A stretch of DNA of 64,000 nt from Bdellovibrionia bacterium (GTDB taxonomy: Bacteria > Bdellovibrionota > Bdellovibrionia > Bdellovibrionales > JAGQZY01). The translations under genes were made by a program, and so were the position numbers. The stretch covers positions 310,001-374,000 of the forward strand of contig JAUICP010000001.1 in assembly GCA_030427805.1 (NCBI GenBank). The letters run 5' to 3'. The notes beneath the pieces were generated by a model. The model did not search any database. It saw only the letters and a list, made by a program, of their open reading frames with translations, and was not told the origin of the DNA. Shown here piece after piece: positions 30,395 to 37,252 of this stretch. Numbering within the stretch: the first letter of the stretch is position 1; each line of letters begins with the position of its first letter.

Positions 30395-30443
30395 CTATTA
30401 ATAGAGGTTTATAGACATTCTAAAATACTGATTTGGAGAACTT

Positions 30444-32303
30444 GTGAAGAACTTGATTTTACTATTCACTGTCTTTTCTATGGTGGCTTGTACAAGCACA
30501 TCGCACTATCGCCGAGGCCCATCTAATGTTGATGTAAAACATACGGATCGCCAGGATTATTCAAGAATTTATACGGATACATCAAGTGACGCTTATAAAG
30601 AAATCATGGGAATACAACTTCCCGAGGGCCAACGTATGCGACGAGATATACTTGATCGCTACGAGCAGCTTAAGGCCGAAGATAACTTAGTGGCCGTCGG
30701 ATATATCCTTGAGCAAGTTCGAGTGCAGCCGATAGAACTTTTTAAGCAACTTAGAACCTATATGCCAGTTCTTGAGTTGGAACTGCCGGGTGGATCGAAC
30801 ATGTTTCTCGTTTCTCGAGATGAATCTGTTCGAGAAGCGCTCTTACAACCAAAAGTATTTAGTGTTGCCGATTATAGAGATCGAATGCAGCCCTCAGTCG
30901 GTGAGTACATGCTCAACCGTGATGTGACACAAGGGCAACTTGAGATTGCCGAGCAAATAATGCGTGGAGAACTTCAAGGTGAAGCTTTACAAAATGCTAT
31001 TGCGGCTCTGGATTACTATAATCTAAGAGAAAAAATGTGGATGCGCCGGCTTCTATCAGCTGATGATTATCCGAGGATTCGTCAAGTTGTTCGAGAAAAA
31101 ATGCAGGCTGCTATCAGCGAGCGCACGAGTTGGAATGGCGAGCTTGAGTTGACGAGCCAGATATCACGGGTCGTTCCAGTTCAATTGATTCAAGACTACA
31201 TGGGATTTGGTGCTCCTCTCCACAAGATGCAAGAATGGTCCTTTAAAACCCAAGATAGCTTTTTCCACAATGTGGGCTACTTTAGAGGCTATCGAGGATC
31301 TATTGCTGATAATTTTCTACCAAACTTCATCGGTACAACCCTATTTCTTAAAGAATTTGCCGCCGGCGATAGATCGGGTCGACAAAGATTAGCATCGCGT
31401 GTTCACGCCGATGGAATTGGTGCCGGCCAAGAAATGCATGAGTTTTTAAAAAAATATATAAGAGATAACAAAGGTCAACTGACCCAAGGCAATTTTGAAG
31501 ACTTAACGATTCTTGGTAGAATGTTGAGGCTCCAAGAAGAAGAGGGGATTGATCTCCGAAAAGGAGCGGGCCGTCTTGCAATCAATGGCCGGCGTATTGA
31601 CCAGGCTCCAAGAACGGCAATGAAGGTTGCTGAAGATGGTCGTATACGCACGAGCATTATCGGCGGCCTCGTTGGCGCGATCGAAACATCGAATGCTGCC
31701 ATCGTACAATCAATCAATTATTTACTAAAAAAACCTGAACATCTCAGGGCCACTATCGCTGCAGCCAATGAACTCAGTGATAGTGATAGTATTCATGATT
31801 CAGACTTTGCCAATCATGTCTGGGAGGCACTGAGGTTTCATCCCATTAATCCATTTGTCGTAAGAACTGTTGAGAAAAATCATTACGTCCACTATACAGC
31901 GAGAAACGAAATCGGTTCTACTAATCAAGTAAGAGTTGAAATTCCTGAAGGGGCTAGAGTCCTTCTTGCGACTCACTCTGCAATGCACGATCCACGAACT
32001 GTGTTTAACCCTGATGAGTTCAATGCCGATAGAAATCCACAAGACCGAAGAATGAATTTAGGTTTTGGACTTCACCGCTGCCTTGGAGACTATGTTTCCG
32101 AAGTTATGATCCCTGAGATTGTCAGGCAAATCGTCGTTCTTCCTGGTCTAGAGCGGGTTGATGAGGATGAGGTTAAACCGGCCGAGGGGCAAACGATGGC
32201 AAGAAACCAAGGAATAGATTTCGGTCGAAGAGATTCGTTTCCTGAAAGTTTCAAAATTAAATACGATAAAGAGCAGTTGGAAAACCAGAATGGAGGTGAG
32301 TAA
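30444..32303 (+). CDS. Cytochrome P450 with lipoprotein signal peptide
   Basis: All P450 landmarks are visible: the I-helix GAIET (411-415), the K-helix ExxR as EALR (461-464), and the haem loop LGFGLHRCLG with the thiolate ligand at Cys546. The usual Phe seven residues before that Cys is Leu. The N-terminus is a classic lipoprotein signal (MKNLILLFTVFSMVAC, Cys16), so the enzyme should be anchored outside the cytoplasm. That is odd, because bacterial P450s are normally soluble in the cytosol and haem is loaded there. The body is long (619 aa), with extra sequence before the I-helix. Start GTG, GGAG 5 bases before it. It shares one base with the next gene. Redox partner and substrate unknown. 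Confidence 0.85.
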   Translation: MKNLILLFTVFSMVACTSTSHYRRGPSNVDVKHTDRQDYSRIYTDTSSDAYKEIMGIQLPEGQRMRRDILDRYEQLKAEDNLVAVGYILEQVRVQPIELFKQLRTYMPVLELELPGGSNMFLVSRDESVREALLQPKVFSVADYRDRMQPSVGEYMLNRDVTQGQLEIAEQIMRGELQGEALQNAIAALDYYNLREKMWMRRLLSADDYPRIRQVVREKMQAAISERTSWNGELELTSQISRVVPVQLIQDYMGFGAPLHKMQEWSFKTQDSFFHNVGYFRGYRGSIADNFLPNFIGTTLFLKEFAAGDRSGRQRLASRVHADGIGAGQEMHEFLKKYIRDNKGQLTQGNFEDLTILGRMLRLQEEEGIDLRKGAGRLAINGRRIDQAPRTAMKVAEDGRIRTSIIGGLVGAIETSNAAIVQSINYLLKKPEHLRATIAAANELSDSDSIHDSDFANHVWEALRFHPINPFVVRTVEKNHYVHYTARNEIGSTNQVRVEIPEGARVLLATHSAMHDPRTVFNPDEFNADRNPQDRRMNLGFGLHRCLGDYVSEVMIPEIVRQIVVLPGLERVDEDEVKPAEGQTMARNQGIDFGRRDSFPESFKIKYDKEQLENQNGGE

Positions 32304-33073
32304 TGAAAAGACTGGTACTTGTTTTCACATTGACCTTAAGTTTCAGCCTCCAATCGAATGCATCCAGAGAATGGCTTGAAAATTCCTGGCTCGGCGACAC
32401 TGTCGATAGCATTCGCAATATGACAAAAAAGCCAGTTCAAATTGGTGACCTTATTGTTCACGAAATTAACTATCTCAAGCAATCTGGAATTGGTGACAAG
32501 ATCGTCGAATTCCTTAAAGCAGACGTAGCGGTCGATAACCTGATTCGAGCGGAATATGGCTTTCGAGTAAAGAAGGGTGAAATAGCTAAATTCAAATTGT
32601 GTGTGCTAGCTCTATCTATTGCGTCTCTCGATGTCGACTTTGCCTATAGAGAAGTCGCTTACACCTATTGCTCTAAAGTCGCCCTCGAAAGACCAATAGT
32701 TCTCGAACCTCGGGATATCGAAGCCATTCATCAGTTAATTCCAGTTAACTATATTGTGGATGTACTAAAGGGGCTTCGCGACGAACAGGATCAGATGAAT
32801 CACACTGAAACTCTATTTGAACTCTGCAAAAAGAACCCCCTGGGATCGACGGCTTTCTCGAGCTCTTCGGAAAACGAGTACTATTGTACTCTCAACCTCG
32901 GTTTTAGGGCGTGTAATTTGCTGATTACTTTTAGTTATCCTGAAGATATGTCAGTGGCCGAGAAGAGGCTCAAGGCATTTAACTTTTGTAAAGACAACAA
33001 AAGACTTCCGTTGACCGAGCAACAAAAGAGCGACTACACAGAACGGCTTTCAAATTACATGGCAGGCGCCTAA
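32303..33073 (+). CDS. Exported protein coupled to the P450
   Basis: The ATG shares its A with the P450 stop (TAATG), so translation is coupled. Signal peptide about residues 1-20. The mature 235 residues are mainly helical with six or seven cysteines, several in the second half (LCKKN, YYCTL, RACN, FNFCKD), so disulfides are likely. No family recognised. By coupling it is the best candidate for a partner or a chaperone of the exported P450. Confidence 0.65.
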   Translation: MKRLVLVFTLTLSFSLQSNASREWLENSWLGDTVDSIRNMTKKPVQIGDLIVHEINYLKQSGIGDKIVEFLKADVAVDNLIRAEYGFRVKKGEIAKFKLCVLALSIASLDVDFAYREVAYTYCSKVALERPIVLEPRDIEAIHQLIPVNYIVDVLKGLRDEQDQMNHTETLFELCKKNPLGSTAFSSSSENEYYCTLNLGFRACNLLITFSYPEDMSVAEKRLKAFNFCKDNKRLPLTEQQKSDYTERLSNYMAGA

Positions 33074-33095
33074 TAAAATAAGGCACAATTTAAAT

Positions 33096-33130
33096 AAAAA
33101 AAGAGTCGGTATAATACCGACTCTTTTTTT
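33096..33130. terminator. Bidirectional terminator between P450 operon and di-haem gene
   Basis: The 15-bp stem (33096-33110 with 33116-33130) has a 5-base loop and A7/T7 ends, so it works for both converging transcripts. Confidence 0.92.
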
Positions 33131-33148
33131 TGTGCTCTGTCAAAAATT

Positions 33149-35713
33149 CTATTCAGAAACAGCTGAACAACTGGCATTTGCTGGAGAAAGTGCCTGCAGT
33201 GGATCAATCTTATTGATTTGGTAGTAGTTTCCAGGATTCTCCCAAGCATATTCTGGCTCGGGTTGTAGGACCTTTAAGAATTCAATTAAATTTCGCTTAT
33301 CCGCAAAAGTCATATCATCAAAATGATCAAAGTAATGACCTCTATTACTATTACCACTTCCAAGTTGATCGAGTTGCGAGTAAACGGCCTCAATCGCTTG
33401 CCTTGCCAAAACGGGATCGGGTTGCTTGTTGCCGTACCTATCAAGAATAAAATTGCCGTCCTCGTCTTTCAATGAGCCAGCGTCCATCAAGTTGTAAAAC
33501 CAATCAACGGATTCATTATCAACGATGAAGCACTTTTCAGAATCGTCTTTGCAGATTTTTCTCAGAAGACCTTGATTAGGTTGGAAGTATCCGAGCTTCA
33601 CACCGTCGTAGGCTCGACCGGGTAATAAAACTTCTCCGGTTTCGACATCGGTAATAGGTTGGCTTGCTGCATAGAATTGAGTCATACGATTTTCAGGTGG
33701 CGTTAGAAGTTCCATTATATTGGCAACAGAACCGTTGTGTAGGTAAGGTGCTGTGGCCCAAACTCCAGAAAGGTGACGGGCTACATAGCCAGTTAACATT
33801 GGAGTGTTGAGGTAGCCAAGGTCGAATTGTGCGTTGGCTTCAGTCTCTCCTCTAAATGAATCTCTAAAAACCTCTGGCCCTCTAATTTCTTTGACGTATG
33901 AAAAGTCGTTAAGGAAGCCTTCAGCATCGACTGAACCAGGACTATCAGAAGCAAACTGATCCCGAACTGCTTGGGTGAAACCAAATAAAACTTCTTTAAG
34001 TGGTTTTCCATCGATAAACTTTGCTTGCATAACAGACTGATTGGGGTCTGTACCAATGGTCGTTAACGGAAAGGAATGATAGTTGATAAGTTCTCCAGAA
34101 GGCCCTACTCGAGTCTCAGCTCCTGTGTGACATCCCATACAATTTTTAACATAGACTTCACAACCGGGAACAACTTTTTCGCGATCAATGTCGTCGCCCA
34201 TAAGTTCTGTCCATTGTGGAATTTTAATATCGTAGATCTTCTTTTCTAAGTAACCGAGATTTGGAATATTTGTCGTGGCTCTGAAGCGCCCTTTTTCGAT
34301 GAGATAATTCCTCTGTTCGTCTTCAGACATCTCAGCCATTTCTTGGGCTTCAGCTTGTGCCTCTTCGGGAGTTGCCTTGTTACTAAGAACAGCGCCTAGG
34401 CCGAAACTTTGACCAATATTTCTCATTAAAACTGAGTTTGTATTAGCATTCCAATGAAACATAGATCGATATTTGATTCCCCACATATGAGGAAACGACA
34501 CATTGGCCTTTAAAGGAACAGGATCATCGTATCGTGCAACTGTGTTGCCGATTCTTCCAAAGGCGTCGGTTGTTCCATACCCCGAAGGTGTTTGGTCAGT
34601 GTCTGGGTAACCAGAAATTGTGTTAGCTAACCATTCCATTCGAGCCTGTAGTTCTTTTGTGAGTAAATTTTGTGCCTTGAACCACTCATGCTCTTCGTCA
34701 GTAGGCATTTTATTTTGATTGGCCTCTTCCCTAAGATCTTTAAAGACTGTAATGATTAGAAGCTTCTCTAAATATTCTTTTACTGTCGTTCTATATTCGA
34801 GAATATGTGATCGCGCTCTATTTTTAAACCAACTTCTGAGAGCTTGTATCGTGATTAAGCGCGATTCTCCAGATGTTTCTTCTTCTTCCTCACAGGGGAT
34901 TTCTCCTGCTTCGTATTGTGGTGTTTCTGTGCGTTCAATCCAGTTTCCAAACAAAAACCTTTTTGTGGAGTTTCTTGTAACATTGAATTCAATATCATTT
35001 TTAAACTGACATACAAATTGACTTGCCATCGGTAAAGCCTGGTCGACTGGATAACCAAATCCGAGAATGTTCTGGGTTCCAGACAAAAACTCTCTCAGTT
35101 TTTTAACATTGAGAAACATCAATACCGTAGACCCAGCCATGTCGCGAAAGAAACCTCGAACATTCATAATGTTTCCGGCTCCTTCGACAAACACATGTTT
35201 AAAATTTTCGGAAATATTAGATCGATAAGTCATCGAGTTTGAATGGCAGAACGTACAATTTGTTCCGATCATCGCTATACTTGGTGTTCCATCAATGATT
35301 CTAAATGCTCTTTTAAGTTGGGCCCAGCTAGCAACATCCTCATCGAGATTTCCTACCGGCTTGTAAACATCGGCTTGATCGTGGGGAGCATTGCTCCAAC
35401 TCGCCGATACCCCGATATAGGGAAGTAAGTAAGGGCTTTTATAATAGTCAGCAACATCTTCGGCAGCGTAAGGGTTTGGTATTATCCCATACTTTTCATC
35501 CAAATTATCGAGGTACATACTGCCATCACCTGCGTGGTTTCTTAGACTAACGGCCCAAGCATAGGGATAAACGTCAGCCCCTTCAGTGACGTGCCAGAAC
35601 TTATTGAGATCTTGTGGATTATTAATCCCTGGCGGTATTTCTGGTTTTGCCCACAAAGCTAAGGACGAACCAAGGGTGATTAAAATAATAAAGAGATTTC
35701 GAATTTGTTTCAC
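33149..35713 (-). CDS. RoxA-like exported di-haem cytochrome c
   Basis: The GTG start has GAAGG 5 bases upstream. A signal peptide (1-22) leads to an 832-aa mature protein with two c-type haem sites: CTFCH (153-157) and CMGCH (525-529). The segment VWATAPYLHNGSV (about 651-663) is a hallmark of the di-haem peroxidase-like family that includes the rubber oxygenase RoxA. MauG/CcpA-type proteins are much shorter. An acidic CEEEEE stretch near 274 and a helical insertion (295-360) fill the middle. Likely a periplasmic or secreted dioxygenase or peroxidase. It converges on the exported P450, so a joint oxidation pathway is possible. Substrate unknown. Confidence 0.83.
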   Translation of the reverse strand: MKQIRNLFIILITLGSSLALWAKPEIPPGINNPQDLNKFWHVTEGADVYPYAWAVSLRNHAGDGSMYLDNLDEKYGIIPNPYAAEDVADYYKSPYLLPYIGVSASWSNAPHDQADVYKPVGNLDEDVASWAQLKRAFRIIDGTPSIAMIGTNCTFCHSNSMTYRSNISENFKHVFVEGAGNIMNVRGFFRDMAGSTVLMFLNVKKLREFLSGTQNILGFGYPVDQALPMASQFVCQFKNDIEFNVTRNSTKRFLFGNWIERTETPQYEAGEIPCEEEEETSGESRLITIQALRSWFKNRARSHILEYRTTVKEYLEKLLIITVFKDLREEANQNKMPTDEEHEWFKAQNLLTKELQARMEWLANTISGYPDTDQTPSGYGTTDAFGRIGNTVARYDDPVPLKANVSFPHMWGIKYRSMFHWNANTNSVLMRNIGQSFGLGAVLSNKATPEEAQAEAQEMAEMSEDEQRNYLIEKGRFRATTNIPNLGYLEKKIYDIKIPQWTELMGDDIDREKVVPGCEVYVKNCMGCHTGAETRVGPSGELINYHSFPLTTIGTDPNQSVMQAKFIDGKPLKEVLFGFTQAVRDQFASDSPGSVDAEGFLNDFSYVKEIRGPEVFRDSFRGETEANAQFDLGYLNTPMLTGYVARHLSGVWATAPYLHNGSVANIMELLTPPENRMTQFYAASQPITDVETGEVLLPGRAYDGVKLGYFQPNQGLLRKICKDDSEKCFIVDNESVDWFYNLMDAGSLKDEDGNFILDRYGNKQPDPVLARQAIEAVYSQLDQLGSGNSNRGHYFDHFDDMTFADKRNLIEFLKVLQPEPEYAWENPGNYYQINKIDPLQALSPANASCSAVSE

Positions 35714-36049
35714 TTTTGCCTTCTTTTCACTAAAGGATTCTTCTATTTACAGAGCTTTTCTAAAACGACGTTTAATAAAGCAAAAAAATTGCCGAAAATT
35801 AAGAATACTAATATATGCAAGTGTTGATTGAACTACTGGTAATGATTCAGAAATTTACTGAATAGTGAGATTATGGCCAATTTTGAAAGAGTTCAATTAA
35901 ACGACACTCAACAAAAATTGTCGGCTTGATGGGCCCGCTCCCAATATTGAGTAACAATAGCCCTTAAAGAGTCAATATGCCTCTATTATTTTCGTCTCGA
36001 GCAATCTCTTTGTTTTAGTTTTGGCATGATTTGAGTATAATGTGCGGGT
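35714..36049. other. Intergenic region between two haem protein genes
   Basis: This 336-base gap holds the divergent start regions of the di-haem cytochrome and the CXXCH lipoprotein. I see a small hairpin (ATTCAG 35845-35850 with CTGAAT 35858-35863) and a -10 box at 36036. No coding frame or repeat of note. Confidence 0.6.
36036..36041 (+). promoter_or_regulatory. -10 element TATAAT of the CXXCH lipoprotein
   Basis: A perfect TATAAT ends 8 bases before the ATG at 36050. No good -35 and no Shine-Dalgarno site are seen, so a nearly leaderless mRNA is expected. Confidence 0.45.
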
Positions 36050-37252
36050 ATGAAAAACTTAAAAATATATATTATTGTTTTGTTCGCAATTTGTTTTGGA
36101 TTAGTTTCGTGTACATCATCTGATACTGAAAATGGACAGAAGGCCGATCTCAAGTCATCGATGCATCGTTTTGCTGCCACGATTTCAAACCTTATTCCGT
36201 ATATGGGTCAACTCTATAAGTTTGAAGACCAAAAAAACCAGAAGATTATTTTGGCCAACTTACAAGAACTTAAAGCGACCAATGCATTAATAAGTCACCA
36301 GCTTGAGAAAAGCTATAGTGACCCAGCGATGTTGACGGTGATCGAGCAATTTAATGATGATATCAATGCTATTACCGATGATTATCAAATGGAGAAATAT
36401 CTTCGCGCCAACTGGCGACTGCGACATATTATTTCGAATTGTAATACCTGTCATAGCAGATCGTCGGAGGACTTTAAGTTAAAACCGATCCGGTGGGATG
36501 TAAAAACAGAGGGTTTGAGGCCTGAAGAAAGTATAGAAATACTTCTGGCTCTTAAAATGTACAGAGAAGCTATCGATAAACTGTTTCGAGCTATGGATTT
36601 AAATCAAATTACTGGTTATCCGCTGAAGCAAACCTTAAAAAAGTCATTAGCTGTATCTGTACGAGTTTTACGTAACTATGACTTAAGTTCAAATATTGTT
36701 AATCATGCGATGAAGACCGGAAACCAGACGCTCTTTCAAAGGGGCATGCTTAAGTTTTGGAAGCAGAGTTTAGCAAATATTAAAAACAATCCTGCGACCG
36801 CTCAGACGTTTTATGAAAAAGGCTTGAAGGCCGAAAAGCGTGGTAAAGATTATGGGTTTGTTTTCTTTCTTGAGGGGTCTGCTCGAGTTAATAAAGACTT
36901 AAATAAGTACTCGAGTGATTATCGATATTCAAAGAATCTTTTGCTTGCGGGTCAGCTATCTACAAAATTAGTTTCAATTTCTGAGGGTGAGCAGGACATA
37001 GCTTTTTTTGAATCCTGCATTCTGCATCGACCCCATTCGAGTTTTGCACGAAAATGCTATAAGTATTTGAAGAGTAGTTACCAACGGCGTGGTTTTCTAA
37101 AGAAGTCTGCCTATAAAAAAAGACTAGATCGCTTCTGGGTTGAGGCCTCTGATAGAGAAGAACCACTTCACGAAAAGATGCGTGATAAGAAAGAATTAGA
37201 TGACGAATTTATCTTTCTTAGACGCATTTATCTCGACGATCTTTCTCTCTAG
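36050..37252 (+). CDS. Lipoprotein with cytochrome c'-like CXXCH site
   Basis: Lipobox FGLVSC, acylation at Cys21. The next 115 residues look like a four-helix bundle with the haem site CNTCH (131-135) near the end of the fourth helix, as in cytochrome c'. The remaining 265 residues form a helical C-terminal extension with a basic tail; they match nothing I recognise. As a membrane-tethered one-haem protein facing the periplasm it could pass electrons to the RoxA-like protein or the P450. It diverges from the RoxA-like gene. Confidence 0.72.
   Translation: MKNLKIYIIVLFAICFGLVSCTSSDTENGQKADLKSSMHRFAATISNLIPYMGQLYKFEDQKNQKIILANLQELKATNALISHQLEKSYSDPAMLTVIEQFNDDINAITDDYQMEKYLRANWRLRHIISNCNTCHSRSSEDFKLKPIRWDVKTEGLRPEESIEILLALKMYREAIDKLFRAMDLNQITGYPLKQTLKKSLAVSVRVLRNYDLSSNIVNHAMKTGNQTLFQRGMLKFWKQSLANIKNNPATAQTFYEKGLKAEKRGKDYGFVFFLEGSARVNKDLNKYSSDYRYSKNLLLAGQLSTKLVSISEGEQDIAFFESCILHRPHSSFARKCYKYLKSSYQRRGFLKKSAYKKRLDRFWVEASDREEPLHEKMRDKKELDDEFIFLRRIYLDDLSL

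Follow-up and report, generated by a model that had tools for sequence, protein, structure and literature searches.

In the window analysed here, a stretch of 64,000 nucleotides of contig JAUICP010000001.1 (positions 310,001 to 374,000, forward strand) from the 4.5 Mb genome of a Bdellovibrionia bacterium (assembly GCA_030427805.1), the gene of an exported cytochrome P450 is paired with that of an exported RoxA-like di-haem protein. We put at roughly 60% the probability that the two form an extracytoplasmic couple in which the RoxA-like protein would act as a fatty-acid dioxygenase and the P450 would convert the resulting hydroperoxide. Comparison of homologues supports the predicted export of both proteins, the pairing of their genes and the origin of a small partner protein, while substrate, reaction and the partner's role are deduced from sequence and neighbourhood; as a whole, the picture suggests that fatty acids are oxidised outside the cytoplasm in two steps, to give oxylipin-type signals or chemicals. 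The open reading frames (ORFs) at 30444-37252 match those of a preliminary description that had seen all four genes there as an extracytoplasmic oxidation pathway. What stands of it is a conserved coupling of the P450 to a di-haem oxygenase-like protein, both exported, and not the participation of all four genes.

Predicted export of the cytochrome P450

The P450 gene and its overlapping partner comprise the following features.

30434..30446, + strand: ribosome-binding site (GGAGA; GGAG site) and GTG start of the P450, read from the sequence
30444..32303, + strand: exported lipoprotein cytochrome P450, 619 residues (Pfam, alignment A3, AlphaFold model, Foldseek, cysteine count)
30444..30491, + strand: lipoprotein signal peptide and lipobox of the P450, with Cys16 (sequence; signal conserved in homologues)
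31683..31688, + strand: I-helix acid-alcohol pair E414-T415 (alignment A3)
32079..32081, + strand: haem-thiolate ligand Cys546 (invariant in A3)
32303..33073, + strand: exported partner, 256 residues with six cysteines, assigned as a detached C-terminal Cys domain (hhalign, BLAST, cysteine count)

The product belongs to the P450 superfamily, as it matches PF00067 at 34.2 bits (cut-off, 22.8), its AlphaFold model has the P450 fold (predicted template modelling score [pTM], 0.79), and the best Foldseek match of that model is CYP134A1 (E 1e-14). Across the 25 sequences of alignment A3, the ExxR motif (E461/R464, residues 461-464), Thr415 and the haem ligand Cys546, which sits in the signature F/L-G-x-G-x-H-x-C-x-G, are invariant and Glu414 is nearly so; the I-helix stretch GAIET therefore carries the acid-alcohol pair of O2-activating P450 monooxygenases. 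PF00067 and A3 together bear out the full catalytic set (ExxR, I-helix Thr, haem Cys546) that had been read in the preliminary description.

P450s are cytosolic in nearly all bacteria. The window P450 starts with the lipoprotein signal VKNLILLFTVFSMVAC, already recognised earlier and upheld here, in which n-region, hydrophobic stretch and lipobox Cys16 are all present, and the sequence after the cut mark starts TS; no twin-Arg motif was found in the signal region. Relatives without a signal peptide had been named beforehand as grounds for abandoning the idea of export, and there are none among the examined Bdellovibrionota homologues with an intact N terminus, where signals were called by eye and by a simple script that missed four accepted by eye. 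These signals occur in several families of the same order and in more distant members of the phylum and mostly end in a lipobox, which part of genus g37 replaces by a signal peptidase I site.

Apart from Cys16 (lipid) and Cys546 (haem), the window P450 has no cysteine. The same is seen in the cores of the exported homologues, 14 of 16 of which have none besides the haem ligand (two have a single pair each), whereas signal-less relatives in other phyla (n=18) have one to six non-haem cysteines (Mann-Whitney p ~3e-7, without correction for shared ancestry and prior to small corrections of the counts). As an oxidising periplasm is expected to select against free thiols, this depletion indirectly supports a location outside the cytosol. 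In a tree of exported and other members, branches are long, and a single exported clade is neither supported nor contradicted. Two P450-like exported lipoproteins found elsewhere (L067, 6013-8112, and L104, 850-2019) do not have the haem cysteine.

ResB was found in the genome and CcmE was not, which points to System II haem export. The genome has one more P450 gene (G000:C4:6804-8474(-), locus L050), whose product carries a Sec signal (KKPFFKELLFLGLLLFAGALNA, cut before QS) and intact AGHETT, ETLR and FGCGPRVCTG motifs; it lies next to the gene of an exported alpha/beta hydrolase. This P450 falls outside the clade of the window P450 and has no match in 147 relatives at E 1e-40. As the two are unrelated, assembly of P450s in the periplasm may be more than a single accident. 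At the end of the same contig (G000:C4:3-1589) there is an ORF with a long GSTKSS tandem repeat. The literature searched, of which coverage was partial, gave no description of an exported, secreted or periplasmic bacterial P450, and both signal peptides and the periplasm go unmentioned in a survey of proteobacterial P450s.

Most P450 homologues are longer (666-1009 residues) because they carry a Cys-rich C-terminal domain that the window P450 lacks. The next ORF, which overlaps that of the P450 by one base, matches the profile of this domain from the fused homologues (hhalign 94.3%, E 1e-7; BLAST E 1e-4), so by homology we identify the partner as the split-off domain. It had been described as an exported coupled partner, to which we can now add an identity as the P450's own C-terminal domain, perhaps with a docking or stabilising role.

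The RoxA-like protein and its pairing with the P450

The convergent gene has the features below.

33149..35713, - strand: exported RoxA-like di-haem protein, 854 residues, NF040606 subfamily (Pfam, NCBIfam, profile and fold comparison)
35243..35257, - strand: first haem-c motif, CTFCH, residues 153-157 (sequence; invariant in A2/A4)
34127..34141, - strand: second haem-c motif, CMGCH, residues 525-529 (sequence; invariant in A2/A4)
33725..33760, - strand: WATAPYLHNGSV motif, residues 652-663, inside the PF21419 match (642-680)
33335..33355, - strand: GN.N.GH motif, residues 787-793, with a conserved His (G787-H793 conserved in A2/A4)

The match to PF21419 (RoxA-like_Cyt-c; 59.7 bits against a cut-off of 26.7), the two CXXCH motifs and WATAPYLHNGSV agree with the earlier reading of an 854-residue exported di-haem protein with a RoxA-like mark. 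Among solved structures, RoxA (4b2n) is its closest relative in both profile and fold comparisons, and the GN.N.GH motif aligns with GNDNGGH of RoxA; the profile alignments to 4b2n leave out the stretch of RoxA W302/F317. By its model scores, the protein is placed in the di-haem peroxidase subfamily NF040606 (named di-heme-cytochrome C peroxidase; 223 bits, cut-off 150) and outside RoxA, RoxB and RoxC, whose models gave 34, 50 and 55 bits against cut-offs of 1000, 900 and 900. A rubber or polyisoprenoid oxygenase was rejected on these scores, and the polyisoprenoid substrate proposed in the preliminary description found no support in them. The protein has the features described for FadCcp-type enzymes, namely export, two CXXCH and PY.HNGSV (PMC4496055).

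Pairing with the P450 is conserved in Bdellovibrionota. Among 369 genomes from this phylum, 16 contain both genes, 2 only the RoxA-like gene, 1 only the P450 and 350 neither (Fisher p 6e-25, uncorrected for ancestry), and the match in the sole P450-only genome is a lipoprotein without the haem Cys. The two genes adjoin in ~10 distinct loci, and in four genomes both are present on different contigs. Tree distances of the two proteins are correlated (Mantel r 0.81 within Bdellovibrionota and 0.91 in others), to which shared species history contributes. The nearest relative (L075) is of the same genus and has a P450 96% identical to that of the window. The four genes in exactly this order are found only within the genus, so that of the gene order expected earlier only the P450/RoxA-like pair is kept more widely. 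The conserved module consists of the P450 gene, the RoxA-like gene and the partner domain only.

The wider P450 family was obtained from a scan of named genomes. Relatives at 35-43% identity occur in Bradyrhizobium, Reyranella, Neptunomonas, Verrucomicrobia, Chromatiales, Nitrospirillum, cyanobacteria and others, and more distant ones (26-31%) in Roseomonas and Sphingomonadales; these are signal-less and of ~410-460 residues. Most of the closer relatives adjoin a RoxA-like gene; three of the RoxA-like proteins were scored with NF040606, and each exceeded its cut-off (455-462 bits). Among cyanobacteria, and in Rhizobium etli and Sinorhizobium medicae, the place of this gene is taken by that of an animal-type, cyclooxygenase-like (COX-like) haem peroxidase (PF03098). 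In Roseomonas and Skermanella the neighbour is a DyP-type peroxidase, and on plasmid p2 of Pararhizobium qamdonense the P450 and a DyP-type peroxidase C-terminal domain form one protein of 1423 residues (L147, 3881-8152). Genes related to lipids are also found nearby: a patatin phospholipase gene after that of the P450 (two Neptunomonas, one Verrucomicrobium), a secretory lipase gene in a cyanobacterium, and a MAPEG gene directly upstream of the pair in one member of Bdellovibrionota (L074). A cluster of catalase-like protein, di-haem protein and patatin on the symbiosis plasmid of NGR234 (L153, S. fredii pNGR234a 408306-417997) is possibly a P450-free version of the pathway. A third recurrent neighbour, with both exported and cytosolic P450 types, is a DUF1304 membrane protein (L035, 8119-8484; L037, 10488-10859; L039, 5419-5841; L040, 9728-10090; L061, 5296-5655; L072, 9267-9665; L077, 9123-9521), which is a candidate third component; the genome studied here has one DUF1304 gene, unlinked to the pair.

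The fourth gene described earlier lies beyond the module.

36050..37252, + strand: CNTCH lipoprotein, outside the conserved module (family distribution)

Its family is common (102 of 369 genomes of the phylum) and its presence does not follow the P450, so we discarded it as a member of the pathway, in which it had been included. There are two further family matches in the same genome, and the N terminus of the protein has a weak NCBIfam match to BamM (21.4 bits, cut-off 315).

Proposed pathway and alternatives

In the pathway that we favour, the RoxA-like protein would act as a fatty-acid dioxygenase, like PA2077, and produce a hydroperoxide on an unsaturated fatty acid. The P450, probably anchored in the outer membrane, would then take this hydroperoxide as substrate and oxidant both and rearrange it to a diol, an epoxy-alcohol or a similar product. 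With a hydroperoxide as the oxidant, the P450 would need no electron supply. The periplasm cannot supply electrons by the usual ferredoxin route. In the neighbourhoods of the listed loci, which are the part of the genomes that was covered, no gene for a ferredoxin or reductase was recognised. The proposed pathway is favoured by membership of NF040606, by the chemistry of PA2077/PA2078, RoxA-related periplasmic di-haem proteins that convert oleate to its 10S-hydroperoxide and then to a diol (PMC4496055), and by the self-sufficiency of hydroperoxide-isomerising P450s, which use no electron donor and some of which have Thr at the distal site (PMC13049297). As three unrelated types of haem oxygenase or peroxidase are exchanged beside one P450 clade, together with lipid hydrolases and MAPEG, a lipid hydroperoxide could be the link that they share, and the neighbours in other phyla favour a lipid or fatty-acid substrate over a polyisoprenoid.

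Several points weigh against this pathway. The RoxA-like protein could be modelled only with low confidence (pTM 0.71). Among alphas and gammas, the P450 mostly lacks a signal while the RoxA-like protein has a periplasmic anchor, so the two do not always share a compartment, and the patatin and secretory lipase neighbours belong to other phyla and do not stand beside exported P450s. No DyP peroxidase is known to act as a fatty-acid dioxygenase. Last, O2-activating monooxygenases typically have an E-T acid-alcohol pair, which many of the known hydroperoxide P450s have lost.

Since this pair is conserved across both exported and cytosolic members (E414/T415 here), the main rival is still an O2-dependent periplasmic monooxygenase that receives electrons from the RoxA-like protein or another periplasmic cytochrome c, a role for which the two c-type haems of the co-conserved protein and the ResB-type haem export of the genome would be suitable. 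We regard it as unlikely, as the di-haem protein is swapped elsewhere for COX-like or DyP proteins without c-type haem, a pattern that speaks for shared chemistry more than for electron supply, and RoxA-type proteins are oxygenases and not carriers (PMC4496055). Those same partners are haem peroxidases, and with the name given to NF040606 they could speak for peroxide defence or an H2O2-driven peroxygenase, in which H2O2 would be removed by the di-haem protein, working as a cytochrome c peroxidase, and used as oxidant by the P450. This seems quite improbable, given that a CYP152 fatty-acid peroxygenase was ruled out for the P450 (NF053744 equivalog model, 13.9 bits against a cut-off of 600) and that lipids are suggested by the patatin, lipase and MAPEG genes nearby. 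There is very little to expect from cleavage of a polyisoprenoid (rubber-like, or a prey quinone- or dolichol-like one) by a RoxA-type enzyme, followed by oxidation of the aldehyde products by the P450: 4b2n is the closest solved structure and the PYLHNGSV mark is common to both proteins, but the scores with the three Rox models are far too low, and the COX-like replacements and patatin neighbours favour fatty acids.

If fatty-acid oxygenation by the pair is correct, P450 chemistry and haem-thiolate assembly would take place outside the bacterial inner membrane, which raises the question of how haem b is delivered to a Sec-exported P450. There would also be a general bacterial oxylipin module, made of a RoxA-like, COX-like or DyP protein and a P450, with lipases, across several phyla, from relatives of predatory bacteria to rhizobial plasmids.

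Comparison with known systems

The closest functional parallel is the oleate-diol synthase of P. aeruginosa, PA2077/PA2078 (FadCcp; 10S-DOX and 7,10-DS), compared here via its published description. It shares with our proposal the exported RoxA-related di-haem protein, with two CXXCH and PY.HNGSV, and the two-step periplasmic oxygenation of fatty acids (PMC4496055), the latter only proposed for the window pair. In P. aeruginosa both steps are carried out by di-haem paralogues, whereas here the second protein is a P450, and the enzymes differ in length (634 against 854 residues). RoxA, RoxB and RoxC have in common with the window protein the RoxA-like_Cyt-c domain and the two CXXCH motifs, and 4b2n is its best fold match; they differ in their family models, whose cut-offs it misses widely, and in the companion P450 present here. 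In cyanobacteria and rhizobia, pairs of a P450 and an animal-type haem peroxidase contain members of the same P450 clade (in cyanobacteria, 35-39% identical to the query used) next to a haem dioxygenase-like protein, but the P450 is signal-less, of ~420 residues, with several cysteines and without the C-terminal Cys domain, and its partner has an unrelated fold.

For the chemistry of the second step, the proposed counterparts are the fungal DOX-CYP enzymes (linoleate diol, epoxy alcohol and allene oxide synthases) and the sequence from COX to thromboxane or prostacyclin synthase, in which the peroxide made by a haem dioxygenase is isomerised by a companion P450 without a reductase (PMC13049297). 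Their P450s are intracellular and the dioxygenase is of the COX fold, unlike the RoxA-like partner here and the export of both proteins, and the window P450 has kept the acid-alcohol pair. As dioxygenase-P450 tandems are already known in fungi and animals, what would be new here is the fold of the partner and the compartment. We would give about even odds to the fuller picture, in which Bdellovibrionota assemble beyond the cytoplasmic membrane a Sec-exported, lipid-anchored haem-thiolate P450, purged of its non-haem cysteines and with a Cys-rich domain added, and in which this P450 and a RoxA-like dioxygenase together form an oxylipin pathway whose origin is separate from that of the DOX-CYP tandems of fungi and the COX-P450 tandems of animals.

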